Notes under the pieces: generated by a model
Databases searched by the model: none
Told to the model about the DNA's origin: nothing
What the model saw: only the letters and a program-made list of their open reading frames with translations
Part shown: piece by piece, positions 14,087 through 57,699 of the stretch
How positions within the stretch are numbered: the stretch's first letter is position 1
Layout of the letters: every line of letters starts with the position of its first letter
Program-made: the position numbers and the translations under genes
Assembly: GCA_902196205.1 (NCBI GenBank)
Contig: CABIKM010000033.1
Coordinates: forward strand, 1 to 57,747
Direction: 5' to 3'
DNA from: Candidatus Methylomirabilis lanthanidiphila
GTDB lineage: Bacteria > Methylomirabilota > Methylomirabilia > Methylomirabilales > Methylomirabilaceae
Length of the DNA stretch: 57,747 bases

Positions 14087-16369
14087 TTATGGCTGCGGCA
14101 CCCCTGTCCTCTTCCGGCGAAGCGATGCAACGAGACTCCGCGCAAACGCTATTGTCAGAAGCAACTCCTTAAAACAGGTAATCACAAGCTTGGAAGGGCG
14201 GATATGCCAGAATCGCATCTCGCTCAGGTTTTGCCGCGTTTTGGTCCAGAACGCATTGAGGTCCCGACGCGAACAGACAATCTGGTTGCTGAGGGCATCA
14301 TATCTGACATAGAGCCGATCCAATCGCGACGGGAGCCGTCCCTGAATACCGGAATAGACCTCTTGCCATTCATGAACCTTTATGCTCTGCCAGGCATCTC
14401 GATGGAGCGCATACAGGTGTTCAAACCATTTCTTGGCGGGCCCGTCTCCCCATATCCACGATCGATGGAGCGCCTGAATCTTGCCCTGGAGGTCACCCCA
14501 TCTCTTCAGGAATATATTCAGGTCGTGACGACTGAGCAACATCTTGGAGGGAAGCTCTTCAAAGGGATCGAGCAGGGCCCGAACCTTTGCGGGCAACGCT
14601 GTCTTGGCATCGCTATACGCCTTTTGCCACTCCGCAATCTTTAAGGTCTGCCAGATCTCGCCCTGAATCCGTTGAGCCTCGTCGAAAAATCGTTTTTCTC
14701 TTTCACTCCTCGGCCTGGTCTGCAGCCAGATCTCTTCCATCTCTTTCAGGAAGCGGGCCCATGCCATAAACAGACGGCACACCTCTTTCGTGCGTTTCCA
14801 GAGATGGACCGGTACCGGATCAATCGAACACCCCGGCCGCCGCGCAAGCCGTTCCTTCAGGCGGAAAAAGCCCGCAACCATCGGATGCTGCTTCTCGATC
14901 AGGGCGGCGTTCTTGTACCACAGGTACACATTGACGAGATTCCAATATATCCAGGGATTATCACGCCATCGCGCCAGGATCTTCGCCATATTCTCTTTGC
15001 TGTAAAACGCTTGCCAGGCCTCTTGATACGCGGCGGTCCACTCCTCAGTGGTCATATGGGGGTGCGCGGTCGTGGCGTGGAACGAATCCCGCTTGTTAAG
15101 ATCGGGGTCCATCCACTCCCCGCGCAACTTCATCTCCCGATGATCCTCAGAACCCGGTAGCGGGGTCAGCATGAAGAAAGAGGCCTGATCCGGCTGAATC
15201 ACATCCATGAGGTATTGAATATCGCGATCCACCTGCTCCTTCGTATCGAAGGGCAAGCCGATGATATAGGCGGCGTGGACAACCACGCCGGCATCGTGCC
15301 ACTCGCGAATCGTGCCCACATACTCCTCGACCTTATTCTGCCCCTTACCCTGGGACTGGAGATTCTCGGGGTTCACGCTCTCCAGACCGACAAATACCTG
15401 GCTGCAACCGGCCTCCGCAGCGAGACGCACGAAGTCCTTCGGTTTGCGGGCCAGGTCCACCTGCATCATGAAGGAGATGTTGATCCCCTCCCCGCGCAGC
15501 CGAATGATCGCTTCAAAGGTCTCACGCCACAACTTCTTGCGAGCAAAATTGTCGTCCGTGAGAAAGTAGAAGTTGACGCCGCGCTCCAAGTAATTTCTCC
15601 GGATCAGTGTCGCGATCGCCTCCGGGGAGCGCTCTCGCATCATGCGGCCCTGCACATTGATAATGGTGCAGAAGGAGCATGAAAACGGGCAGCCCCGAGA
15701 GGTTTCTACGGTCCCGAAGTTGGGCCTGGCAAAATGCTTCATCGTTTTGGGGCTGGTCACGGGGAGAGGGGCATTTTCGATATCGACTAGATTCTTGAGG
15801 TCGTCGGCAAAGGAATAGAGGGGTTTCAATTGTCCGTTCACGACATCGGTCAGGATCCCCCCCCAATGGCCTTCCACCTCACCGGCCACAACCACAATCG
15901 ATTCCCGATAGAGCTCCTGAATGTCCGGGTCCTGGTCGCCGATAACATTAACGGTTCCACTGGTATGGAATCCACCGATGATGACATCAATCCCATGCGC
16001 GCGGAACTGCTTGCCAAAATCGAGCGCTCTTGGGAATTGGGGGGTTTGAACTGCTACCAGACACACCACCAGTTTCGTCCCAGGTTGGCGGCTCCACTTG
16101 ATAATCCGCTTCACAGGAACCTTTTGAGCGACCTCGTCAAAGGTATCCAGTTGAACGGCGATGTCTCCCAGGACACCGCGCTTCACGACATCTTCGGTCA
16201 GGCCCCGGAGCACGCTGAGGGTGTTGCTGGGCAGGACGCCCTTCCAGAAGCGAATGACGTAGCCATCATCATCATATTGCGAGGGTTTGACAAAGACGAT
16301 TCGAAGGGTCCTGTATTTGTGGGCTTGAGAGGAGAGCAGCGACTGCGGTGATTCCGAATATTCGTGCAT
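14087..16369 (-). CDS. Large B12-domain-type radical SAM protein with duplicated C-terminal module
   Basis: 760 residues from ATG 16369 (AAGGAA upstream). An N-terminal Rossmann-like region (about 20-190) resembles the cobalamin-binding domain of class B radical SAM enzymes, including DVIIGGFHTS. The radical SAM domain has CxxxCxxC at C227, C231, C234 (RGCPFSCSFC) for the 4Fe-4S cluster that cleaves S-adenosylmethionine. About 300 further residues follow, containing two copies of a roughly 60-residue module (about 572-631 and 659-716), then a hydrophobic end. The enzyme class is clear but the substrate is unknown. No neighbour suggests a pathway. Confidence 0.82.
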   Translation of the reverse strand: MHEYSESPQSLLSSQAHKYRTLRIVFVKPSQYDDDGYVIRFWKGVLPSNTLSVLRGLTEDVVKRGVLGDIAVQLDTFDEVAQKVPVKRIIKWSRQPGTKLVVCLVAVQTPQFPRALDFGKQFRAHGIDVIIGGFHTSGTVNVIGDQDPDIQELYRESIVVVAGEVEGHWGGILTDVVNGQLKPLYSFADDLKNLVDIENAPLPVTSPKTMKHFARPNFGTVETSRGCPFSCSFCTIINVQGRMMRERSPEAIATLIRRNYLERGVNFYFLTDDNFARKKLWRETFEAIIRLRGEGINISFMMQVDLARKPKDFVRLAAEAGCSQVFVGLESVNPENLQSQGKGQNKVEEYVGTIREWHDAGVVVHAAYIIGLPFDTKEQVDRDIQYLMDVIQPDQASFFMLTPLPGSEDHREMKLRGEWMDPDLNKRDSFHATTAHPHMTTEEWTAAYQEAWQAFYSKENMAKILARWRDNPWIYWNLVNVYLWYKNAALIEKQHPMVAGFFRLKERLARRPGCSIDPVPVHLWKRTKEVCRLFMAWARFLKEMEEIWLQTRPRSEREKRFFDEAQRIQGEIWQTLKIAEWQKAYSDAKTALPAKVRALLDPFEELPSKMLLSRHDLNIFLKRWGDLQGKIQALHRSWIWGDGPAKKWFEHLYALHRDAWQSIKVHEWQEVYSGIQGRLPSRLDRLYVRYDALSNQIVCSRRDLNAFWTKTRQNLSEMRFWHIRPSKLVITCFKELLLTIAFARSLVASLRRKRTGVPQP

Positions 16370-16487
16370 AGTTTCCTTGATGGCTAACGATACGCGCGAA
16401 CCGTCAGTTGCGTCCTCTACGTGTCGCGTTGCTCGCCACCGCACTTCCACATACGTACAGATCGTACCGAATCTAACGCGGAGTGTT

Positions 16488-39427: not shown

Positions 39428-39766
39428 CTAACTGCTTGGTGGAAGTACGTCCCACTTGGCGCTTCGCGCTAAGCTTTTTGCAATTCTGGGAGGCTTATTG
39501 CCTTTCACTATAGCATGCGCCGGATTGTTTTCGACAGGGTCATGAAATACGTCCTGCTCGAGAGACCTCGCGTAGCCGGCCGTTATAGAAGCTAACCCGT
39601 GTGAAGAATATTCACTAAGAACTCGTTGTGGAGTGGTAACCCTTGCCACATCCACTGACATTTCAGGATCCTTAAATGCTGCCGAAGTAGGCCTCCCATC
39701 TTTTACTTGTAAAGGGTGTATTCTCCTGTAAAGCTCGTCGTTATCTGCAATCTCTTCGACCTCCAT
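39428..39766 (-). CDS. Hypothetical protein, third gene of the TIGR04255-headed module
   Basis: 112 residues from ATG 39766; a TTG at 39793 would add nine. Notable stretches are LYRRIHPLQVKDGRPTSAAF, DPEMSVDVARVTTP and DPVENNPAHAIVKG. His, Arg, Asp and Ser positions look constrained, giving the impression of a compact enzyme-like or nucleic-acid-binding domain, but no family was recognised. It is 45 bases downstream of the second gene on the same strand and shares the same AT-richer composition. Confidence 0.65.
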   Translation of the reverse strand: MEVEEIADNDELYRRIHPLQVKDGRPTSAAFKDPEMSVDVARVTTPQRVLSEYSSHGLASITAGYARSLEQDVFHDPVENNPAHAIVKGNKPPRIAKSLARSAKWDVLPPSS

Positions 39767-39811
39767 CCGCTCGATCTCTCGACCTAGATTCAAAAGGAAA
39801 ACGCTTGTCGG

Positions 39812-40333
39812 TCAAACGAAATGGATCAGAACTCTCCTGACCAGAGTCACGAGATCGCGAGTTGTGCCTTCATCAGTGATATCATCCGTTCCCTTTCGGG
39901 TAATCAGATATTCGAAGGGGATTCCACCTGGCCCCACGGTAACACTGACCTCGGTCGTTGGCAGTGCCCATTCGAGCAGTAATCCCCCATCCGAACAGGG
40001 AGCAGCAAAGGGCTCCGGGAGAGATGTGCTGAGGGATTCCCACAGCAGCTTTATGATCTTCTTCGCCGCTATCTGGGTCGCGTGATCTATTGGCGGGGCT
40101 CCGTAAGAATCCCAACCATGAGGCAGGTAACGGAAGGCAGAAATCTTGTCGAATACCGCACGTAGTCTTTTGAGGTGCTCTTCTTCAAGAATGTCGTCGA
40201 AGACCCAGTTCGCCGACGCGCTCCCCGTAGTTGAGGCGGAGGACACCACGGTGGGGGCCTCTTTTTCGAGAAGGCAAGTCGCCGCACCGCCTTGAGCATG
40301 CCCTTCGAATCCGCTCCCGCTCACTCTCATCAT
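39812..40333 (-). CDS. Hypothetical protein, second gene of the module
   Basis: 173 residues from ATG 40333, which overlaps the upstream stop by four bases (ATGA), so it is translationally coupled. The first 55 residues are low in complexity (Ser, Ala, Thr). The conserved-looking body has LPHGWDSYGAPPIDHATQIAAKKI and PCSDGGLLLEWALPTTEVSVTVGP (shorter cores GWDSYGAPPI and SDGGLLLEW). The second half looks like a beta-sheet that pairs acidic and aromatic residues. This pattern recurs in unnamed bacterial proteins. No function is known to me. Confidence 0.72.
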   Translation of the reverse strand: MMRVSGSGFEGHAQGGAATCLLEKEAPTVVSSASTTGSASANWVFDDILEEEHLKRLRAVFDKISAFRYLPHGWDSYGAPPIDHATQIAAKKIIKLLWESLSTSLPEPFAAPCSDGGLLLEWALPTTEVSVTVGPGGIPFEYLITRKGTDDITDEGTTRDLVTLVRRVLIHFV

Positions 40334-41145
40334 TGTATCCTTTCCCAGCGCTTGTGGGCAGTATTTGATGTCAGATCGGTAAACCCACGCACGATCCATT
40401 CATGAGCCACCTCGAACCACTCTTCCAAGTCCGAGCCTTCCGGCTGAGATCTCCCCCTGGCTGTGAGCTCAAGAATCAGCACGTCTTTGTTATCGACACT
40501 CCTTTTTCCATGCTTGAAAGTAACATGCAGTGCACCTCGTTCCTCTGGCAATCGAAAGCGGAGACTCATTGTCGCGTTGCTCGACTTCGGGAGGAACCCC
40601 GTCGAATAGGCAGAGCTCCAGGAAAACAGAGGAGAATAATCTTCTATTGCCGCAGGGAAGGCGCCGTCTGCCTCAACGATGTGGTTGACATACGTGGCCT
40701 CATATTGATTGGGTTGGATCTTCCCCAGTTCGTTGTTGATAGCAAACGTCCGAAAGGTTTCCCAATATTTCATGAACCGTTCTTTCGCGGTATTGAAATG
40801 AGGGTACTCATCTCCCTCTTTCGACTTACGCCAATTATGGTGGAATCGAGTCGGCTGGAGCTGTATAAGATAGTTCTTGTTGGAGTGGATCAGAAATACC
40901 CGCCTGAGCGGTGGTAGATCAACAAGTTCGATTTCGCCCTTAGCCTCAACACCTTGTACCCCCTCGAAGATTTCCGTCAATGGCGCTCTATCCTCAAGAA
41001 TAGGATACTCATCTTTAACATGACTCCAAAATAGTCCGTAGTGGGCCGTCAAAAAATTTGGCAGGGGATCAAACTGCACTCCGAGCACCACCTCAATCAC
41101 TGGCGGGGCCTTAAAATCGGGCATGGGCTCAGGTGATCGACTCAT
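40330..41145 (-). CDS. TIGR04255 family protein, first gene of the module
   Basis: 271 residues with GGAGGT eight bases before the ATG. The N-terminal FKAPPVIEVVLGVQFDPL and the overall layout match the sporadically distributed TIGR04255 family, whose biochemical role is undescribed. Later signatures are QPTRFHHNWRK, NQYEATYVNHI and LRFRLPEERGALHVTF. The protein is soluble and mixed alpha/beta. It heads a three-gene minus-strand operon, divergent from a type III restriction system, in DNA that is visibly poorer in GC than the core genes. Confidence 0.78.
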   Translation of the reverse strand: MSRSPEPMPDFKAPPVIEVVLGVQFDPLPNFLTAHYGLFWSHVKDEYPILEDRAPLTEIFEGVQGVEAKGEIELVDLPPLRRVFLIHSNKNYLIQLQPTRFHHNWRKSKEGDEYPHFNTAKERFMKYWETFRTFAINNELGKIQPNQYEATYVNHIVEADGAFPAAIEDYSPLFSWSSAYSTGFLPKSSNATMSLRFRLPEERGALHVTFKHGKRSVDNKDVLILELTARGRSQPEGSDLEEWFEVAHEWIVRGFTDLTSNTAHKRWERIQ

Positions 41146-41295
41146 TACTGGACCTCCATACCCAAATTACCTCTTTTCGAGTCTAGTCGCAACCCTCACC
41201 GCAAGGCCAGAAAGAGGGCTGTCTCGCCCAGAATGCAGTCATGTTTCGAAACAAAAGCGTGAAGTTCTCTCGCGTAAGCCGCATTATCTTGCGGT

Positions 41296-41324
41296 ACCTT
41301 AGCGAAAGGGTAGAGCTCTGTCAA
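41296..41324 (-). promoter_or_regulatory. Promoter of the TIGR04255 module
   Basis: TTGACA (41319-41324), a 17-base spacer and TAAGGT (41296-41301) on the minus strand. The leader to the first start codon is about 145 bases. Confidence 0.6.
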
Positions 41325-41344
41325 GCAATTCCAGGACAGAAAGC

Positions 41345-41373
41345 TTGACACTCAGGGGCCGCCTGCCTAGGAT
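41345..41373 (+). promoter_or_regulatory. Promoter of the type III restriction-modification operon
   Basis: TTGACA, a 17-base spacer and TAGGAT, with a leader of about 30 bases. Its -35 lies in the inverted repeat TGTCAAGC (41319-41326) / GCTTGACA (41343-41350), whose other arm is the -35 of the divergent promoter. Confidence 0.68.
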
Positions 41374-41408
41374 AGCCCTGACTGAGCGGGACAACAGGAG
41401 GGGTGGAC

Positions 41409-44174
41409 ATGTCAACCAAAGGGCGAAGGTCAACGAAGGCAAAGCAGACGCGGGACGCGAAAGACCCGCAGGCCTACGACCATAAGAAGGGGGAGGACAA
41501 GCTCCTCCTGCGGCCGGATGTCGGGCTGCAGGCGCAGTTCAGGCAGAAAAAGCCGCCAAAGAGCTATCGCTACGATCCGGGCCTCGATCCGGCCCTCTCG
41601 TGGGATGTGAGCGCCGACCGCGAACGAGCCGAAGCCCTGGTCGCCAGGATCGAGCAGGCCGAGGACCTTACCGAGGCTAAGTTGGCAGCCGCCGAACTGC
41701 GGCAGATGTCGCGGCCCTTCCTGAACTGGGCGGGGAAGGCGGAGCGAGGCGAGTTCACAGTCCCCACCCTGCCGCTCTTCGTCCACGAGCGTCTCTCCAC
41801 CCAGGCGATCCTGCAATCCGTCAAATCGCATAAACGCGACCGGCAGCAGACGCTTGCCCTCTTTGCCGACGAAGAGCTGGATGTCGCCGACCGGCTGCTC
41901 AAGGCCTACACGTACCAGACCGACTGGGTGAACCGCTTACTCCTGGGCGACAGCCTGGTGGTCATGAACAGCCTGTTGCAGTACGAAGGGCTGGGCGGCC
42001 AGGTCCAGATGCTTTACATGGACCCGCCTTACGGCGTCAAATTCGGCTCCAACTTTCAGCCGTTCATCCGGCGACGCGACGTCAGGCATGGCGACGACGG
42101 CGACCTGACCCGCGAGCCAGAAATGGTCCAGGCCTACCGCGACACCTGGGAGCTGGGACTGCACTCCTACCTCACGTATCTCCGCGACCGCCTGCTCCTG
42201 GCGAGGGAGCTACTGAACGAGAGAGGCAGCATCTTCGTCCAGATCAGCGACGAGAACCTCCATCATGTGCGCGAGGTCATGGACGAGGTGTTCGGAGCGG
42301 AGAATTGTATTGCCGTCATCGCATTCAAGAAAACTGGGTTTGCTAGTGACGAGACTCTTTCGACCACGCACGATTTCCTCCTCTGGTATGCAAAACGTTC
42401 TGAAGACATAAAATTGCGGTCTGTCTTCGGAGAGCGCGAATTGCTACCGAACGAACTTTTCTTCTATGACCAAATCGAGCTTCCGGACGGAACGCGGCGT
42501 CCACTCTCTTCTGATGAAAAGAACCTTGGGCCAAGGATTCGAGAGATTGGTCGACCATATGCTCGCAATCCTATGGTATCCCCGGGATGGCAGGATTCAT
42601 TGAGCTTGCCGGTTGAGTTTGAAGGCCGGACCTTCCGTCCTCCACCAAATCGGCACTGGGCGACAACACAGGAAGGAATTGAAAGGCTTCGTGAAGCCCG
42701 GCGTCTCGCTATTAAGGGGAACACACTCCGTTTTATCCGTTACTTTGATGACTTCCCCCTTCAACCGTTAGGAACAGTATGGAACGATACTGGGGTTGGT
42801 GGGTTTGTTGGCGATGAACGCCTGTACGTTGTTCAAACCGATGTCCGAGTAATCCAACGCTGCCTTCTGATGACCACCGATCCGGGCGATCTCGTGCTCG
42901 ATCCCACCTGCGGAAGCGGGACGACGGCGTACGTGGCGGAGCAGTGGGGGCGGCGGTGGATCACCATCGACACGAGCCGGGTGCCTCTCGCCCTGGCTCG
43001 CCAGCGGCTGCTGACGGCCACCTTCCCATACTATGAGCTGCGCGACCCGGCCCGGGGTCCTGGCGGTGGCTTCGTCTACAAGCGCAAGCACAATCAGAAG
43101 GGGGAAGAAGTGGGCGGCATCGTCCCGCACATCACGCTGAAGTCGATTGCCCAGAACGAGCCACCCCAGGAGGAGGTGCTGGTCGACCGTCCCGAGGTCG
43201 AATCGAGCATTGTCCGCGTCTCCGGCCCCTTCGTCGTTGAGGCCACGATTCCTACGGCCATTGAGCTTTCGCCGACAGGGGCCACCAACGACAATCAGGC
43301 GAGCTATGAGGCCGACCCCATCGGCCGGATGATCGAGGTCTTGAGGCGCTCGCCCACCCTTCGGCTTGCGGGCAATCAGAGCGTCACGCTCAAGCATATC
43401 CGGCGTCCGGCCAAGGCGATGGACCTGCACGCCGAGGCGGAGCTGGTCGAACCGACCCTCGAGGACCTGGCGGAGGAGGCCGCGACCCAGAAGTCTCTCG
43501 ATATGAAGCGCGGCAAGCCGGTCGCCTTCATCTTCGGACCGGAGCACGGGCCGGTAACCGAGCAGATGGTGTTTGCCGCTGCGAAGGAAGCCCACCTGAA
43601 GAGCTACAATCGGCTCTTCGTGGTCGGTTTTGCCATTCAGCCGGGCGCCAGTAAGTTGATCCAGAATTGCGAGCAGGCGGTCGGCCTGCCGGCTACCTAT
43701 GTCCAGGCCACGATGGACCTCGTGATGAACGACCTGCTCAAAACCACCCGCGCCAGTCAGATCTTCTCGGTGACGGGCGCCCCTGACATCAGGCTCATTC
43801 GGCTCAAGCGAAAGAACGGCAATGGCCCGCTCTATCGCGTGGAGTTGCTGGGTCTCGATGTCTTCGATCCGGTAACGATGCAGAACGACCATCGGAAAGG
43901 CGACGATGTCCCGGCCTGGTTGCTGGATGCCGACTATGATGACCTGGTTTTCCATGTGACCCAGGCGTTCTTCCCCCGGACCAGCGCCTGGGACCACCTG
44001 AAGCGCGCCCTCAAGGGGACCTACGAGGACTCGGTCTGGGAGCACTTGGCCGGGACCGTCAGCGAGCCGTTCGCCGCCGGCGAGCATAAGAAGATCGCCG
44101 TCAAGGTCATCGACGACCGCGGCAACGAATTGATGGTGGTCAGGTGGCTCGCCGACGCCGAATCCGAGCGGTAA
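41409..44174 (+). CDS. mod: Type III restriction-modification DNA methyltransferase (Mod)
   Basis: 921 residues from ATG 41409, five bases after AGGAGGGG. The catalytic motif DPPYG is at 205-209 and the SAM-binding motif DPTCGSGTT starts at 498, the order of class beta N6-adenine or N4-cytosine methyltransferases such as type III Mod. Between them, about 299-485, lies the target-recognition region, whose DNA is much poorer in GC than both sides. A C-terminal extension of about 380 residues makes it longer than typical Mod proteins (about 550-650). It modifies the site cut by the next gene's product, four bases downstream. Confidence 0.92.
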   Translation: MSTKGRRSTKAKQTRDAKDPQAYDHKKGEDKLLLRPDVGLQAQFRQKKPPKSYRYDPGLDPALSWDVSADRERAEALVARIEQAEDLTEAKLAAAELRQMSRPFLNWAGKAERGEFTVPTLPLFVHERLSTQAILQSVKSHKRDRQQTLALFADEELDVADRLLKAYTYQTDWVNRLLLGDSLVVMNSLLQYEGLGGQVQMLYMDPPYGVKFGSNFQPFIRRRDVRHGDDGDLTREPEMVQAYRDTWELGLHSYLTYLRDRLLLARELLNERGSIFVQISDENLHHVREVMDEVFGAENCIAVIAFKKTGFASDETLSTTHDFLLWYAKRSEDIKLRSVFGERELLPNELFFYDQIELPDGTRRPLSSDEKNLGPRIREIGRPYARNPMVSPGWQDSLSLPVEFEGRTFRPPPNRHWATTQEGIERLREARRLAIKGNTLRFIRYFDDFPLQPLGTVWNDTGVGGFVGDERLYVVQTDVRVIQRCLLMTTDPGDLVLDPTCGSGTTAYVAEQWGRRWITIDTSRVPLALARQRLLTATFPYYELRDPARGPGGGFVYKRKHNQKGEEVGGIVPHITLKSIAQNEPPQEEVLVDRPEVESSIVRVSGPFVVEATIPTAIELSPTGATNDNQASYEADPIGRMIEVLRRSPTLRLAGNQSVTLKHIRRPAKAMDLHAEAELVEPTLEDLAEEAATQKSLDMKRGKPVAFIFGPEHGPVTEQMVFAAAKEAHLKSYNRLFVVGFAIQPGASKLIQNCEQAVGLPATYVQATMDLVMNDLLKTTRASQIFSVTGAPDIRLIRLKRKNGNGPLYRVELLGLDVFDPVTMQNDHRKGDDVPAWLLDADYDDLVFHVTQAFFPRTSAWDHLKRALKGTYEDSVWEHLAGTVSEPFAAGEHKKIAVKVIDDRGNELMVVRWLADAESER

Positions 44175-44178
44175 CGGC

Positions 44179-47112
44179 ATGAGCCAGTTTAACGAGGTCC
44201 TGCAACCGATTATCTGCGATGCCTACGCAAAGCCGAGCCATCACTGGGTGATTGAGAAGGGCAAGCCCCCAGTGAAGGCTCAGGGGCGGCGAGAGGCGTG
44301 CTATTACTACCGGCCTCCTGGCCGGTCCACGGGAACCAATCAGGCCGACGAGGTCGGCACACGCATTCTCCTCGATCTGGTCAATGAGATCCGCGACCGG
44401 GTGAAATCCTGGAGACGGACCGGCTTCCCAGGGGTGACCGGCGTGACGGGAGAGCTGCTCGCGTACTGGAACCGGGACGACCGCGAACGGCGACTGTTCT
44501 TCTGCCAGCGCGAGGCCGTCGAGACGATCATCTTCCTCACGGAGGCCCGTGGCGACTTCCTCCATGGGCTCTCAATCCCACGCGATGAGCCGGGCGAGAT
44601 TGTCCGGTATGCCTGCAAGATGGCCACCGGAAGCGGCAAGACGGCGGTTATGGGGATGCTCGCCGCCTGGAGCATCCTGAACAAGGTGGCGGACAGGACG
44701 GATAAGCGCTTTTCCGATGTGGTGCTCGTCCTCTGCCCCAACGTCACGATTCGAGAGCGCCTGCAGGAACTCGACCCGCATCGAGGCGAGGCGAGTATTT
44801 ATCGCGCGCGGGATCTCGTTCCCTCGCATCGGATGAGCGATTTGCGGAAGGGGCACGTCCTGATCCGGAACTGGCATGTCCTGGCCCCCCAGGAGATGAA
44901 CCAGGTTGGAGGTGTCGGGGCCAAGGTGGTGAACCGGGGAGACGAATCGGATACGGCATTGGTCTCCAGGGTCCTTGGAAGGGGCGTGGGCGGCAAGGGC
45001 AACATTCTTATCCTCAACGACGAGGCCCACCATGCCTATCGGATCCGCCAGCTCGACAACACCGCAGAGCTGGAAGAGGAAGACGAGCTGGCCGAGCCCG
45101 ACGGGCGCGAGGCCACGGTCTGGATCGAGGGACTCGACAAGATCCGCCGGATTCGAGGCATCAACCTCTGTGTGGACCTGTCGGCCACGCCATTTTATCT
45201 CAATCGCAGCAAGAATGACGCCGGCCGTCCCTTCCCCTGGATCGTATCCGATTTCGGGTTGATTGACGCCATCGAAAGCGGGCTGGTGAAGATCCCGCAA
45301 CTCCCGGTTCAGGACACCACGGGGGCGGAGATTCCGGCGTACTTCAATGTCTGGAAATGGATCGTCGAAAAGAAATTGACGCCGGGGGAAAAGGGGGGCA
45401 AGAAGGGGCAGGTCAAACCCGAGGCGGTCCTGAAGTGGGCGCAGTCGCCGATCGCGCAGTTGGCCGGTCTCTGGCGGGAGAAGTTTATCGACTGGGAACG
45501 CGAGGCGAGGGAGGGGAAACGGCCCTTCGTTCCGCCGGTCTTCATTATCGTCTGCAAGGACACACGGCTGGCCAAGGTAGTCTATGAGTGGATCACGGCG
45601 GAGGGCGAGGGCACAGCCCCTCCTATCGAGGAGTTTCGTAACCGGGAAGAGCAGGAATACACCGTCCGTATCGATTCGAGGGTGGCGGAGGAGATTTCAT
45701 CTGGTGTTGCCAAAAGCGATGAGAGTCGCCGCCTGCGATTCGTTCTGGACACCATCGGTAAGATCGCGTGGCCTGGAGGGGAGATCCCGGCCGAGTACCT
45801 GGAACTGACCGAGAAGCTGAATCGCAAGGCCATCGAGGAGGGCGGCCGCAGGATCGATCCGAGGATTCCTCCCGGGCGTGATGTCCGCTGCATCGTCTCC
45901 GTTGCCATGCTGACCGAAGGATGGGACGCCACGACCGTGACCCACATCGTGGGGCTGAGGCCCTTCGACTCGCAGCTTCTTTGTGAACAAGTAGTCGGGC
46001 GCGGGCTCCGGCGATCCCAGTATTACGACCTGACGGTTGAAGAAGTGGCCAAGGTCTACGGCGTGCCGTTCGAGTTGATCCCTCTCAAGACGCCGGACAA
46101 AGGAAGGCCTGCTCCGCCCCCTAAGATCCGCCACGTGCATGCCCTCTCCCCAGAGCGCGACGACCTCGAAATCCGGTTCCCTCGGGTGGAGGGGTACGCC
46201 TATCGGATCAGGAGACAAATAACGGTCGCATGGGAGCGGATGCCGGTACTTATTGTGGACCCCATGAAGATCCCCGATGAGACAAAGGTCAAGGGCTTGT
46301 CCACGGAAGAGGGCGGCCGTCTGTCGCTGATGGGGCCAGGGAAAACCGAGCAGGTGACGCTTCAGCCGTGGCGGGAACCCAAACGCATTCAGGAACTGGA
46401 GTTCGACTTGGCGCGGGCACTGACACGACAGTATGCCAACAGTCCTGCCTGCGAGGTACCCCCGCACGCGCTGTTCCCACAGATGCTTGGGGTCGTCAAG
46501 CATTTCCTGAGAGAGAAAGTCCAGCCCGTCGGACGCACCGATCGAAAAGATGTCTTCCTTGAGCCCTACTATTCCGAGGCGATGAACATGCTGGCTGAAG
46601 CCATCGTCCCGGACAATGCCGACAGTCCTGAGCTTCCGCACTACGAGGCCCATCGGGGCGAGGGGAGCACACGGGATGTTGACTTCTGGACGTCAAAGCC
46701 TGGGAGGGAGTGCGAGCGCTCGCACCTGAACTGGGTCGTGGCGGATACCGAGAAGTGGGAGCAGACGGCAGCCTTCTATCTCGATAGCGACAAGCACGTA
46801 GTGGCGTTTGTGAAGAACTTCAACCTGGGGTTCGCCATTCCGTACAGCCACAACGGAGAGGCGAAGGAGTATTTGCCGGATTTCCTGGTCCGACTTCAGA
46901 GGGACGGCAGCGAGGCCGGAACCCTGGTCCTTGAGACGAAGGGGTATGATCCACTGACCGCCGCCAAAGAGGCTGGGGCGCGCCGCTGGGTCGCCGCCAT
47001 CAACGCCGACGGGTCCCACGGGCAATGGGCCTACCGTCTGATCAGGTTCCCAACCGACACCCCTGAGGCAATCCGGTCGGCAGTCGAGGAACTGGTCGGC
47101 AGCGAGGAGTAG
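44179..47112 (+). CDS. res: Type III restriction endonuclease/helicase subunit (Res)
   Basis: 977 residues. Superfamily 2 helicase motifs are Walker A MATGSGKT at 148-155, DEAH at 281-284, SATPF and QVVGRGLRR. A C-terminal PD-(D/E)xK nuclease follows with D901 in LPDFLV and E919-T-K921 in LETKGYD. All catalytic residues are present, so the enzyme looks intact. It resembles the group annotated as BPTD_3080-type restriction endonucleases. Its stop codon TAG is formed at the TA boundary of the repeat element that follows. Confidence 0.92.
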   Translation: MSQFNEVLQPIICDAYAKPSHHWVIEKGKPPVKAQGRREACYYYRPPGRSTGTNQADEVGTRILLDLVNEIRDRVKSWRRTGFPGVTGVTGELLAYWNRDDRERRLFFCQREAVETIIFLTEARGDFLHGLSIPRDEPGEIVRYACKMATGSGKTAVMGMLAAWSILNKVADRTDKRFSDVVLVLCPNVTIRERLQELDPHRGEASIYRARDLVPSHRMSDLRKGHVLIRNWHVLAPQEMNQVGGVGAKVVNRGDESDTALVSRVLGRGVGGKGNILILNDEAHHAYRIRQLDNTAELEEEDELAEPDGREATVWIEGLDKIRRIRGINLCVDLSATPFYLNRSKNDAGRPFPWIVSDFGLIDAIESGLVKIPQLPVQDTTGAEIPAYFNVWKWIVEKKLTPGEKGGKKGQVKPEAVLKWAQSPIAQLAGLWREKFIDWEREAREGKRPFVPPVFIIVCKDTRLAKVVYEWITAEGEGTAPPIEEFRNREEQEYTVRIDSRVAEEISSGVAKSDESRRLRFVLDTIGKIAWPGGEIPAEYLELTEKLNRKAIEEGGRRIDPRIPPGRDVRCIVSVAMLTEGWDATTVTHIVGLRPFDSQLLCEQVVGRGLRRSQYYDLTVEEVAKVYGVPFELIPLKTPDKGRPAPPPKIRHVHALSPERDDLEIRFPRVEGYAYRIRRQITVAWERMPVLIVDPMKIPDETKVKGLSTEEGGRLSLMGPGKTEQVTLQPWREPKRIQELEFDLARALTRQYANSPACEVPPHALFPQMLGVVKHFLREKVQPVGRTDRKDVFLEPYYSEAMNMLAEAIVPDNADSPELPHYEAHRGEGSTRDVDFWTSKPGRECERSHLNWVVADTEKWEQTAAFYLDSDKHVVAFVKNFNLGFAIPYSHNGEAKEYLPDFLVRLQRDGSEAGTLVLETKGYDPLTAAKEAGARRWVAAINADGSHGQWAYRLIRFPTDTPEAIRSAVEELVGSEE

Positions 47113-47206
47113 TGTCGCATAAGTCCTTTTCTAGTAATTGTCATTCCGGGCTTGACCCGGAATCCAGTGCCTTTCTGGATTCTCGCTTTTGCGGGAATGA
47201 TGGCTG
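47110..47206. mobile_element. TA-bounded palindromic element (dRS3-like core)
   Basis: It begins at TA-GTGTCGCATAAGTCC, 16 of 17 bases identical to the complement of the right end of the 57381-57525 element (TAGTGTCCCATAAGTCC). It continues into the same core, TCATTCCGGGCTTGACCCGG, then the GCGGGAATGA arm. No coding capacity. The right boundary is unclear. Confidence 0.7.
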
Positions 47207-47233
47207 GGGAAATCTGTAAGGCCAAGCGCTGAA

Positions 47234-47551
47234 TTGTCGCACAAAACAGACAACATTGGTCATAACCAGGAGCAACCCTTTGAGGAGCCGGTCAGGCTGC
47301 CGATCGAGGAGGTCCTTGACCTGCACACCTTTGCGCCGAAGGAGATTGCCTCGGTGGTTGAGGAGTATCTCTGGCAGTGCCGTCAAGCAGGGATGCCGCA
47401 AGTGCGGCTGGTTCATGGGAAGGGGACTGGCACGCAGCGGGCGATCATCCGGCGGCTTCTGACAAACCATCCCGATGTCCTGTCGTTTGCCGATGCGCCA
47501 GCAGAGGCCGGGGGATGGGGAGCCACCATGGTGAGATTAAAACCTTACTAG
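47234..47551 (+). CDS. Small Smr-domain protein
   Basis: 105 residues from a TTG at 47234; no ATG or GTG is available in frame. It contains the complete Smr core: LDLHTFAPKEIASVVEEYL and RLVHGKGTGTQRAIIRRLL, the LDLH and HGKGxG motifs of stand-alone Smr nucleases related to the MutS2 C-terminus. It may nick DNA or cut RNA. The start lies directly after the repeat element, with no clear ribosome-binding site, so expression may be low or altered by the insertion. Bases 47552-47720 hold nothing recognisable. Confidence 0.8.
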   Translation: MSHKTDNIGHNQEQPFEEPVRLPIEEVLDLHTFAPKEIASVVEEYLWQCRQAGMPQVRLVHGKGTGTQRAIIRRLLTNHPDVLSFADAPAEAGGWGATMVRLKPY

Positions 47552-47720
47552 CCGTGGCTTCCAACTATTTCGTTTCTGTATTTTTGGAGCCTTCGGAGTT
47601 CATGCGGAGGAGAATCGAGCACTTTTCGAAGCTCTTGCACTGTATCAACTGGCGCAAACTATCTTTCGGTCTCTCGGTCTCCGTTTGCCAACAATATCTA
47701 CGGGAGCTTTGACTGACTTA

Positions 47721-49499
47721 TCAGGATCGTCTGCGTTGCGCCCTCTCGTAGAACGCATCGCTCTCAATCCCTGTTATCCTCTGCATAGCCCGCCTCGCGG
47801 CACGCAACGCCTTCTCCAAGTACTCCGAAAATGAATAAATGCGAACATAGTACCTAAAATGTTGGTATGATTGCGTCCACTGATCAATTGGAAACAGTTT
47901 CGCTATTTCAACGCCAGGCATTTCACCCGTGCCCCCTGCAACCAATTCGTGAACACCTTCAAAGCTCGGTGCCATAGGCACATCGACCCAAACCCCAGTA
48001 CGCCACAACGCTTCGTCAGGTGTGGAGCCCAGATTCCCGTCAATGATAATAAGTTCTTCACCAATTGCCTGTTCGAGTGTCTCCACATGTGCATCTCGCC
48101 TAGCCCGATCCTGTAGAGTAGTGAGAAACTCAGTCAAGAGCGGCGTCTCCGCATGAGTGGCAACCGCTTCGCTAAATCTGTAGACTTCACGTGGCAGCAA
48201 GCGGTTTACGATGCGATATGAATATTCCTTCGCCAGATCATCACTCGAGCCAAGACCAAGAGGGCCCCGCAGGGCTGAGTCTGTCAACTCCAGGAAGTGC
48301 TCGAGTATTTGCATGTCGCTTTCACCATCATCCAACCATGATTGCACCAGCCTCTTCAGTAACCTTGTGAGCATACCCTCTGCAGCTCGAACTTTTGGAT
48401 GATGGTAAATGTAGCTGTAGAGCATCAGCTTGCATATCACGATTTGTTCTATTGTGTTCAAAGCCTGCCTAGGTAAACGCAGTCGATAGGTCTCATAGTA
48501 AGGCAACGGAGACGCAGGTCCCTCAGAATGCCGCTCCGCGCTTGTTGTGCCGACCGACTTGTAGAGTTTCTCCAACTCGCCTTCGCCGTCTGCGGTAACC
48601 TGCCTTTCAAGGCGAACAGAGTAAAGATACCTATCGATGTCGTAGCGCAAGGGTAGGCCTGCAGCCGTCGCATCGCGCAGAAGGTAGTCGAGCTTGTCAG
48701 CGTCGAAGCCGGATGAAACAATATCTCCAAGGAACTGCAAGAAGGGATGCTTCGCTCGACCAACGATCATCAACGCGGTGTTGGTCAGATCAATGTCTCC
48801 CTGGTAATCCTCCAACGACGGTTCGCCAAGCAGGTGATCCTTTGCTCTCTGGAGCAATCCCGCTATAGACTTACTGCCAGCCACACAGAATGAAATTGCT
48901 TCGCCAGCACCCTTAGTTTTGCCCACGAATCGCGTGAGCTCTTCAGCGGCAGCCTTCAGACTCCCCAGTTCCCGATAAACTTTCTCTGAAGTGTGACTGA
49001 ACAAGCTGTGGCCGACGTCGTGCAGGAGCGCAGCGAGACGCAGTTCTTGTCTCAGGCGAGAGATTGTCACATTGGGGTCTGCGGCCGGGGCGATAGCTCT
49101 TGCAATTTCACGAACCTCGCCGCCTTGCCGCTCAAGGATCGCATCAAAAATGCGGGAGGCTAAGGTGGCAGCGCCTAAGCAGTGCTCAAACCGAGTGTGA
49201 AGCGCGGAAGGGTAGACCTGGAAGGCAAGCCCCACTTGGTGTATGTCTCGTAACCTCTGCACAACGGGGGAATCAATAAGTGCAAGCTCGCGCCAGCTAA
49301 AACGATTTGTGCCCCATAGATTGTCATGAACGACCTTAAATCTTTTTAGGGGAAGAATAGGGCGTTCTGGGGAAGAACCGAAAAAGTCAGGGTGTTTCTT
49401 CTGTAGGAAAGCGTCTAATTGATCAGTAAGCGCCGAGAGGTTAGGGTATTCGCACCCTGGCCAACTTTTCGCAGAGTCGGACACCGGTGGAACATTCAT
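47721..49499 (-). CDS. HD-domain phosphohydrolase (SAMHD1/dNTPase-like)
   Basis: 592 residues. The HD metal site is complete: H106 in TRFEHCLGA, H160-D161 in LLHDVGHSLFSH, and D268 in FDADKLDYLLRD. The spacing and the words around it resemble SAMHD1/YwfO-type deoxynucleotide triphosphohydrolases. The C-terminal half (about 330-592) is helical and specific to this protein. DNA is markedly poorer in GC than the core genes (one 60-base line counts 27 G+C). It follows a small gene on the same strand. A role in dNTP depletion during phage attack is possible, by analogy only. Confidence 0.82.
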   Translation of the reverse strand: MNVPPVSDSAKSWPGCEYPNLSALTDQLDAFLQKKHPDFFGSSPERPILPLKRFKVVHDNLWGTNRFSWRELALIDSPVVQRLRDIHQVGLAFQVYPSALHTRFEHCLGAATLASRIFDAILERQGGEVREIARAIAPAADPNVTISRLRQELRLAALLHDVGHSLFSHTSEKVYRELGSLKAAAEELTRFVGKTKGAGEAISFCVAGSKSIAGLLQRAKDHLLGEPSLEDYQGDIDLTNTALMIVGRAKHPFLQFLGDIVSSGFDADKLDYLLRDATAAGLPLRYDIDRYLYSVRLERQVTADGEGELEKLYKSVGTTSAERHSEGPASPLPYYETYRLRLPRQALNTIEQIVICKLMLYSYIYHHPKVRAAEGMLTRLLKRLVQSWLDDGESDMQILEHFLELTDSALRGPLGLGSSDDLAKEYSYRIVNRLLPREVYRFSEAVATHAETPLLTEFLTTLQDRARRDAHVETLEQAIGEELIIIDGNLGSTPDEALWRTGVWVDVPMAPSFEGVHELVAGGTGEMPGVEIAKLFPIDQWTQSYQHFRYYVRIYSFSEYLEKALRAARRAMQRITGIESDAFYERAQRRRS

Positions 49500-49642
49500 G
49501 CGCCTTGTCCCAGGATTGACCTACGAACCCATGAGAGAATTACTGCCTGTTTAGATTGTAACGCGCTTTCGCAATGATCCCGCATGGTGGTGGGCACAGA
49601 AAACACGAGGCATCCGAACAAACGAGAATTTCGGTGGGTATT

Positions 49643-50053
49643 TCATAGAGATTTTGCGCCGGAGAACTCTTTCTTAGCACGATCTACAGCATAGGACAAA
49701 AACTTACTGATATCCTCATCGGCCACTGAGCCGAAGCGCCCCCTCCACAAATTTGCTACATCGTCCGGCAGGTTGATGACATCGTAGTGCGGGTTACTGA
49801 CCGATACGCTAGCCGTCCAGTGTAGCGCTTGAAGGAAGTCGGACAATTCTCTCGACTTTGGATAAGGTGCGTCCCAATCGAATCGTAATCGCTCCAAGAA
49901 CTCTGGCTTGCCCGGAACTTCTTTACTCTTGAAGAGCTGATAGAAGAGCAAATGCCATGGCTCCTCATTCCTAAAGGGCATACTTACATGTTGGGTTTGG
50001 AGGCTCGCAGCCAGTTGCTTAACGAATTCACCAAGGGAAATCTTTGTAGACAT
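49643..50053 (-). CDS. Hypothetical small partner of the HD protein
   Basis: 136 residues from ATG 50053 with a perfect AGGAGG upstream. It is charged, mostly helical, with FRNEEPWHLLFYQLFKSKEV and DISKFLSYAVDRAKKEFSGA (core PWHLLFYQLFKSKEV). No family recognised. It precedes the HD gene on the same strand by 143 bases and shares its low GC, so the two look like one unit acquired together. Confidence 0.65.
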   Translation of the reverse strand: MSTKISLGEFVKQLAASLQTQHVSMPFRNEEPWHLLFYQLFKSKEVPGKPEFLERLRFDWDAPYPKSRELSDFLQALHWTASVSVSNPHYDVINLPDDVANLWRGRFGSVADEDISKFLSYAVDRAKKEFSGAKSL

Positions 50054-50458
50054 GTTCCTCCTCGCGCCGGACACCGCTTGCGATGATCGCTGTAAAAAAA
50101 TCCCATGTGACGACTTGTCGTCTTTCACGTAGCAATCAACTTAACCCAAGAACACAATTACCATTCAGCAGCAAACTACAACCCAGAGAGCGTCGTATCC
50201 AATGGTAACCCCACGAAACACAGCACAGTAGTCGTCCAGCCATCCGTGGACCATCGCGATCATTTGAAATGATAAAATGTCACCTACTTTTAAGAAAGTC
50301 AAGTTTTTTCAAGCTTCATCAGACTTCTAAAGCGTCGCGGGGCTCGCGGGCGAGTATATCTTTAATGATCGCATTTCCTCCGCGCTCCCGATGAACAAAA
50401 TGTCGCCGCCGAGTCTGGTCCAAACTGGGCAGAAAAACACAACCTGCAAATTTGATCC
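50054..50458. other. AT-rich gene-free region upstream of the HD module
   Basis: No open frame with gene-like sequence. On the minus strand, TTGACT (50297-50302) lies 17 bases from CATTTT, a weak promoter candidate for the 136-residue gene. A near-perfect palindrome TCATTTGAAATGA (50260-50272) lies just downstream and could be an operator. The right half (about 50330-50458) shows nothing. This marks the right edge of the accessory island. Confidence 0.45.
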
Positions 50459-51166: not shown

Positions 51167-51275
51167 TGAAACCCTCCGATTCAGATGCACAATATGGCCT
51201 CATCATACCGCAAGCTCTTCATCATCGCCAGACCATTTACCGCGCGCACGCCCTTTGCGCGCGAGTGGAAATAGA

Positions 51276-57230: not shown

Positions 57231-57380
57231 CCACTATCTCCTTTCTATGATTGCGTCTTTCTCTGTCGCGGCCACTACGCAGCCGCGAGAACTACACAAC
57301 AGCCTACGCCCTCGGGATAACACTGTCAAGGGGCTTGCGCGGCGGCGCGCCTTGACAGGCCCGTGCGCCTATGACATTTT
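57231..57380. other. Gene-free stretch with an inverted repeat
   Basis: Arms CTGTCAAGG (57323-57331) and CCTTGACAG (57350-57358) enclose a GC-rich loop; the arms contain face-to-face TTGACA-like boxes. No gene seen. Confidence 0.4.
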
Positions 57381-57525
57381 CTAGTGTAGTGTACCCAACG
57401 CTTCTTTACATTCATTCTGGAGCCGTCATTCCCGCAAAAGCGGGAATCCAGCGCAGAAAGACTGGATTCCGGGTCAAGCCCGGAATGACGATCACTGCCA
57501 AGGGACTTATGGGACACTACACTAG
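57381..57525. mobile_element. MITE-like element with dRS3-type core
   Basis: Terminal inverted repeats CTAGTGTAGTGTACCCA (left) and TGGGACACTACACTAG (right) differ at one base. Inside are a palindrome of dRS3 type (ATTCCC-N8-GGGAAT) and a second arm that pairs with it. TA lies at both ends, as for IS630/mariner-type insertions. No coding capacity. Confidence 0.75.
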
Positions 57526-57696
57526 TGTCCTGAATCAGAAGTTCGATGAGGAAGTCGACGTCCTAAGTGTCGTCGTTCCCGCGAAAGCGGGAATCCAGAC
57601 CCACGCTATTTCCTGGATTCCGGCTCGCGCCCGCTCTGCGGGCTTGGCCGGAATGACGGCCGGACATATGTCACGGATTTCAGACTCAGGACACTA
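57523..57696. mobile_element. Second MITE-like element abutting the first
   Basis: Terminal repeats TAGTGTCCTGAATCAGAA and its near-complement at 57678-57696, with a central CCCGCGAAAGCGGG palindrome and partner arm. It shares the TAG at 57523-57525 with the first element. A different end sequence but the same core type. Confidence 0.72.
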
Positions 57697-57699
57697 ACT

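Follow-up and report, generated by a model that had tools for sequence, protein, structure and literature searches.

A conserved mobile three-gene module with an exchangeable head gene and a candidate ADP-ribosyltransferase-like effector in Candidatus Methylomirabilis lanthanidiphila

Introduction

The PDC systems of PADLOC came out of a guilt-by-embedding screen as putative candidates, and for most of them no experimental test has been made (PMC12988326). One of them, PDC-M32, has been predicted in a prophage of Sinorhizobium meliloti (PMC12429752). Among characterised systems with an ADP-ribosyltransferase (ART), CmdTAC uses a chaperone that senses a capsid protein, after which the antitoxin is degraded and the ART blocks mRNA (PMC11618068). 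The catalytic profiles described for ARTs are H-H-h, H-Y-[EDQ] and R-S-E (PMC9503650), and some ARTs do without the acidic residue and can rely on substrate-assisted catalysis (PMC8883491).

Here we analyse a locus in a stretch of 57,747 nucleotides (the window) from Candidatus Methylomirabilis lanthanidiphila, in which a gene of the TIGR04255 family heads two genes related to PDC-M32. We call the three genes T, B and C.

Results

A three-gene unit in an accessory island

The unit lies on the minus strand beside a restriction-modification (RM) system:

41145-40330 (-): T, head gene, 271 aa, TIGR04255 family; proposed recognition component
40333-40330 (-): four-base overlap (ATGA) in which T ends and B begins; translational coupling
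40333-39812 (-): B, 173 aa, GWDSYGAPPI / DGG..LEW protein; proposed adaptor or antitoxin
39766-39428 (-): C, 112 aa, PDC-M32B family; proposed ADP-ribosyltransferase-like effector
41403-44174 (+): type III-like DNA methyltransferase (Mod); N6_N4_Mtase E 1.1e-28, MTase_III E 1.4e-147
44179-47112 (+): type III-like restriction helicase (Res); ResIII E 5.5e-6
39428-50128, edges approximate: accessory island with T-B-C, the type III RM genes and two more genes, one for an HD-domain protein and one for a 161-aa protein

A preliminary description of this DNA had claimed three genes in one direction, the first two joined by ATGA and the third following after 45 bases, all of which the ORF coordinates bear out. 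The ATG of C at 39766 stands 45 bases past B; a TTG at 39793 would give a protein of 121 aa, but homologues favour the ATG. Overlaps of four bases, as at the T/B joint, recur at many T-B and B-C joints in other loci. The same description placed the genes in AT-richer DNA next to a restriction system, and both statements hold: the GC content of T, B and C is 0.50, 0.55 and 0.49 against about 0.60 for the window, and the type III-like Mod and Res genes adjoin. Its claim of a single promoter found no backing, since a search of the minus strand before T turned up no sigma-70-like site.

Mod and Res are divergent from T-B-C. From the end of an NtrC-like gene (38394) to a gene start at 51255 the distance is 12.9 kb in this genome, while the orthologous flank pair is 1.7-4.4 kb apart in six congeners (G029, G030, G034, G033, G025 and G024). 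Homologous type III Mod genes adjoin T-B-C in four loci, homologues of the window's Mod being those of L113, L034 and L035 (tblastn), and a Res homologue is present in L113 (tblastn). In these three loci the interval from Mod to a helicase-like gene is occupied by differing T-B-C sets, which do not all point the same way. The pattern resembles repeated insertion at one place in one RM system, and the interval is a possible hotspot inside that system.

The island also holds, in AT-richer DNA, a gene for an HD-domain protein (47721-49499) with a dGTPase-like PADLOC match (E 7.3e-6) and one for a 161-aa protein without a match (49643-50128), possibly a further defence pair. Elsewhere in the window, a radical SAM protein encoded in lower-GC DNA (14087-16450) weakly matches PADLOC PDC-M51A (E 6.4e-8), and an ORF at the end of the window (57371-57697), in which a VIPAKAGIQ-type peptide is repeated, looks like a dispersed short repeat.

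B and C as the core of PDC-M32

C matches PDC-M32B (PDLC04579, E 5.9e-10, positions 3-93 of 123), and B aligns with no more than the end of PDC-M32A, about a third of its length (E 2e-6, positions 226-334 of 375; PADLOC). The pair thus resembles PDC-M32 in that B corresponds to the C-terminal domain of M32A and C to M32B, adjacent and in the same order; adjacency on the same strand is seen here and in 61 of 61 loci. It differs in lacking a full-length M32A of about 375 aa: the N-terminal two-thirds (about 1-230) are missing, and a separate TIGR04255 gene is found there instead. Similarity between the N-terminal region of M32A and TIGR04255 was not detectable. For comparison, a Planctomycete locus (L114) has canonical PDC-M32: its M32A match covers positions 3-371 (E 7.8e-135), and its M32B match has an E of 3.9e-57.

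Since the PDC-M32 core is present and the canonical M32A head absent, we consider the locus a TIGR04255-headed variant. The preliminary description had called the module a candidate undescribed system, which holds only in part, as B and C match a PADLOC candidate. The PADLOC models, as far as tested, include neither a TIGR04255 head nor head exchange nor the predicted ART-like fold of C.

Constancy and spread of the module

All 61 C-family loci, which come from NC10, Planctomycetota, Bacteroidota, plasmids and phages, have B as the gene immediately before C (46 loci plus 15 from Bacteroidota, scored with profiles and including a few near-duplicates). This co-occurrence rules out chance neighbours. 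TIGR04255 is the head gene in 32 of the 61. The three families, whose co-occurrence had been suggested as a check, keep the same order in different phyla, and also where plasmids or a phage carry them.

By genome, C-family matches occur in 3 of 95 members of the window's phylum (with a single-protein query), 27 of 392 Planctomycetota and 25 of 345 Bacteroidota. No relatives closely like the window's own B were found in genome contigs, nor any closely like its C in viral contigs. For homologues of B and C single-sequence scans were insufficient and alignments were needed; Pfam and PDB sequence searches with T, B and C returned nothing useful.

Purifying selection acts on all three genes: wherever dN/dS was computable for a close pair, it stayed under 0.6 for each of them. 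Their distance matrices correlate (T-B 0.52, B-C 0.66, T-C 0.64; Mantel, 0 of 2000 permutations), although block inheritance would look alike.

The module is carried on plasmids, phages and islands. In one phage contig (L127) T-B-C stands immediately past a tyrosine integrase, and in another (L036) a DUF3467-like head and B-C lie amid phage structural and lysis-type genes. Plasmid copies are found before HipA in Hymenobacter (L020), among RelE/ParE and VapBC genes in Limnohabitans (L058), and adjoining a MobF relaxase in Mycobacterium paragordonae (L059). That T-B-C is a conserved mobile three-gene module is well supported.

As to defence neighbours, 119 proteins from around Planctomycete copies gave PADLOC matches at E <= 1e-90 that include DrmA (DISARM), Dsr1, PD-Lambda-5_B, RtcR-CARF and a type II methyltransferase, while 121 control proteins, taken at random places in that group of genomes, reached 9.2e-26 at best; the test is small, with mechanical gene calls, few strong matches and many loci without a known defence gene nearby. 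By reading of the loci, the DrmA-type protein apparently belongs to L102 and a SIR2-type protein to L103, both adjoining T.

An exchangeable head

T is a member of TIGR04255 (NCBIfam 'sporadTIGR04255') by the curated cut-off, aligning with model positions 2-252 of 252 at E 1.1e-21 and 77.8 bits (cut-off 30), in agreement with the family resemblance noted in the preliminary description. The NCBI model gives neither a function nor B-C partners. T has no Pfam or PADLOC matches, and its structure model is weak (pLDDT 65). SecB was absent among the 50 fold matches listed for this model, and with this pLDDT and low TM-scores neither a SecB-like chaperone nor a START/SRPBCC sensor found support.

The position before B-C is occupied by different proteins in different loci. 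Besides TIGR04255, we found DUF6941 (L022, L056), DUF3467 or a DUF3467-like protein (L036, L106, L110, L156, L159), DUF4209/PDC-S39 (Hymenobacter) and a fused M32A domain (L058, L114, L117, L148-L152, L154, L155). Other head proteins were left unplaced (L097, L104, L157/L160, L158), and in several loci no head could be recognised (L057, L112, L116, L120). The heads of L022, L036 and Hymenobacter were scored by Pfam or PADLOC and those of L058 and L114 by PADLOC; the remaining types were assigned from reading of the translations. Three of the other heads were compared by hhalign in case they were TIGR04255 proteins in disguise; no similarity was found, and the idea was discarded. Two Bacteroidota B-C loci (L157, 219-896; L160, 2653-3318) apparently share a helical head of an unnamed family.

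TIGR04255 also occurs without B-C, for example as a second copy in the source genome (L023, contig G000:C52, 618-1514), where an unrelated 252-aa gene comes next and B-C is absent; TIGR04255 thus heads more than one kind of module. In three other loci (L025, 6629-8480; L026; L031) TIGR04255 genes precede other small uncharacterised genes (e.g. 151 + 202 aa), perhaps further TIGR04255-headed systems.

A predicted ART-like fold for C

The AlphaFold2 model of C, built with 8 sequences, reached a pLDDT of 94.4 and a pTM of 0.85. Its best 16 PDB matches (Foldseek) are KptA/Tpt1-type proteins and HopF2 (1s21), with NarE lower; these matches are weak (E 0.08 to 1.5, TM about 0.5). Against the viral library BFVD the best match, at E 0.017, is unnamed, and two annotated 2'-phosphotransferases stand lower down. 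At the sequence level, Pfam ART and RES models matched none of 33 C proteins, and searches with C found no ART families.

Conservation among 36 deduplicated C proteins singles out Arg14 (31/33), Ser37 (36/36) and His84 (36/36), which lie on strands 11-16, 35-40 and 84-88 (beta1, beta2 and beta5) of the model. We take these to be the strands that bear the ART triad. None of the three ART profiles is matched exactly by C, which has Arg-Ser as in R-S-E and a His in third place instead of Glu. The model of C resembles KptA/Tpt1 and other ART-superfamily proteins in its overall fold and in the placement of key residues on the triad strands; C differs from them in being a single domain of 112 aa without a sequence-level match. 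An ART-like fold of C is supported but not proven.

Discussion

The same-order co-occurrence, together with some defence neighbours, makes a defence- or toxin-type module the best reading of the locus. Such a module had been proposed in the preliminary description; recurrence, mobility and part of the neighbourhood speak for it, and it was in part already a PADLOC candidate. A defence role of T-B-C is likely, supported although not proven.

Because B-C is constant, the heads are exchanged and the predicted fold of C is ART-like, we infer sensing by T, restraint by B, and for C both NAD+ chemistry and a target. Mechanistically, T would be the variable recognition part and would sense a phage-derived trigger, while B would restrain C and link it to the head as an adaptor or antitoxin. 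Once freed by the trigger, C would modify a host or phage target with NAD+ and growth would stop, as in CmdTAC. We give a little less than an even chance to this scheme as a whole, that is, a mobile module of antiviral or toxin type whose sensor T can be exchanged, with B as adaptor/antitoxin and C as ART-like effector.

CmdTAC is the closest functional analogue (PMC11618068): T-B-C likewise has three genes, here with a probable ART-type effector, a proposed inhibitor and a proposed sensor. The two differ in that no SecB-like chaperone was found here (T has no Pfam match) and in the Arg-Ser-His profile of C, nor was any likeness of B to the CmdA antitoxin noticed.

A plain toxin-antitoxin pair, with C as toxin, B as antitoxin and a stabilising or regulatory head, would maintain mobile DNA by addiction and would not be antiviral. 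The position of B upstream of C with overlapping starts, the carriage on plasmids and phages, and the copies flanked by RelE/ParE, VapBC and HipA genes would all suit it; however, the heads are large, diverse and exchanged, none of which a simple addiction pair needs, and DISARM, Dsr1 and type III RM genes are among the neighbours. We regard it as unlikely. The roles could also be reversed, with the head as effector, C as a modifying antitoxin that silences it by ADP-ribosylation or otherwise, and B as scaffold, comparable to MNT/HEPN. The Hymenobacter head bears on this directly: DUF4209 is a predicted HEPN domain (PMC3710099), and this predicted RNase looks like an effector, which is the main point against a pure sensor role of the head; the constancy of B-C beside varying heads also speaks for the reversed roles. 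The DUF3467, DUF6941 and TIGR04255 heads, on the other hand, have no known catalytic family, and B-C is found also without a recognisable head, so this arrangement seems improbable to us.

Alternatively, C might be a KptA-like protein that processes RNA ends or binds ADP-ribose, within a module for RNA repair or counter-defence. The nearest solved folds to C are indeed tRNA 2'-phosphotransferases, and phages carry the module. These fold matches are remote, however, C has neither the N-terminal domain nor the size of KptA, and in reading the loci we noticed neither an RNA ligase nor a 2H partner, so that we consider this highly improbable. An ordinary metabolic operon, or genes that are neighbours by chance, might be invoked on the ground that none of the three has a known function, but can scarcely be credited when different phyla, plasmids and phages keep the order although the flanking genes are unrelated, and most relatives are without the module.

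The sensor-adaptor-effector scheme for T-B-C may extend further. It is possible, and we propose it only tentatively, that these loci form a widespread family of bacterial immune systems, with one conserved adaptor-effector pair served by interchangeable recognition proteins (TIGR04255, DUF6941, DUF3467 and others) and with an effector that is an ART of a new Arg-Ser-His class. If true, this would provide a function and a logic for several orphan families, namely TIGR04255, PDC-M32 and the DUF6941 and DUF3467 heads. The PADLOC candidate PDC-M32 would become a testable scheme of sensor, adaptor and effector, and the module would represent a way of building defence systems around a fixed effector with a changeable sensor.
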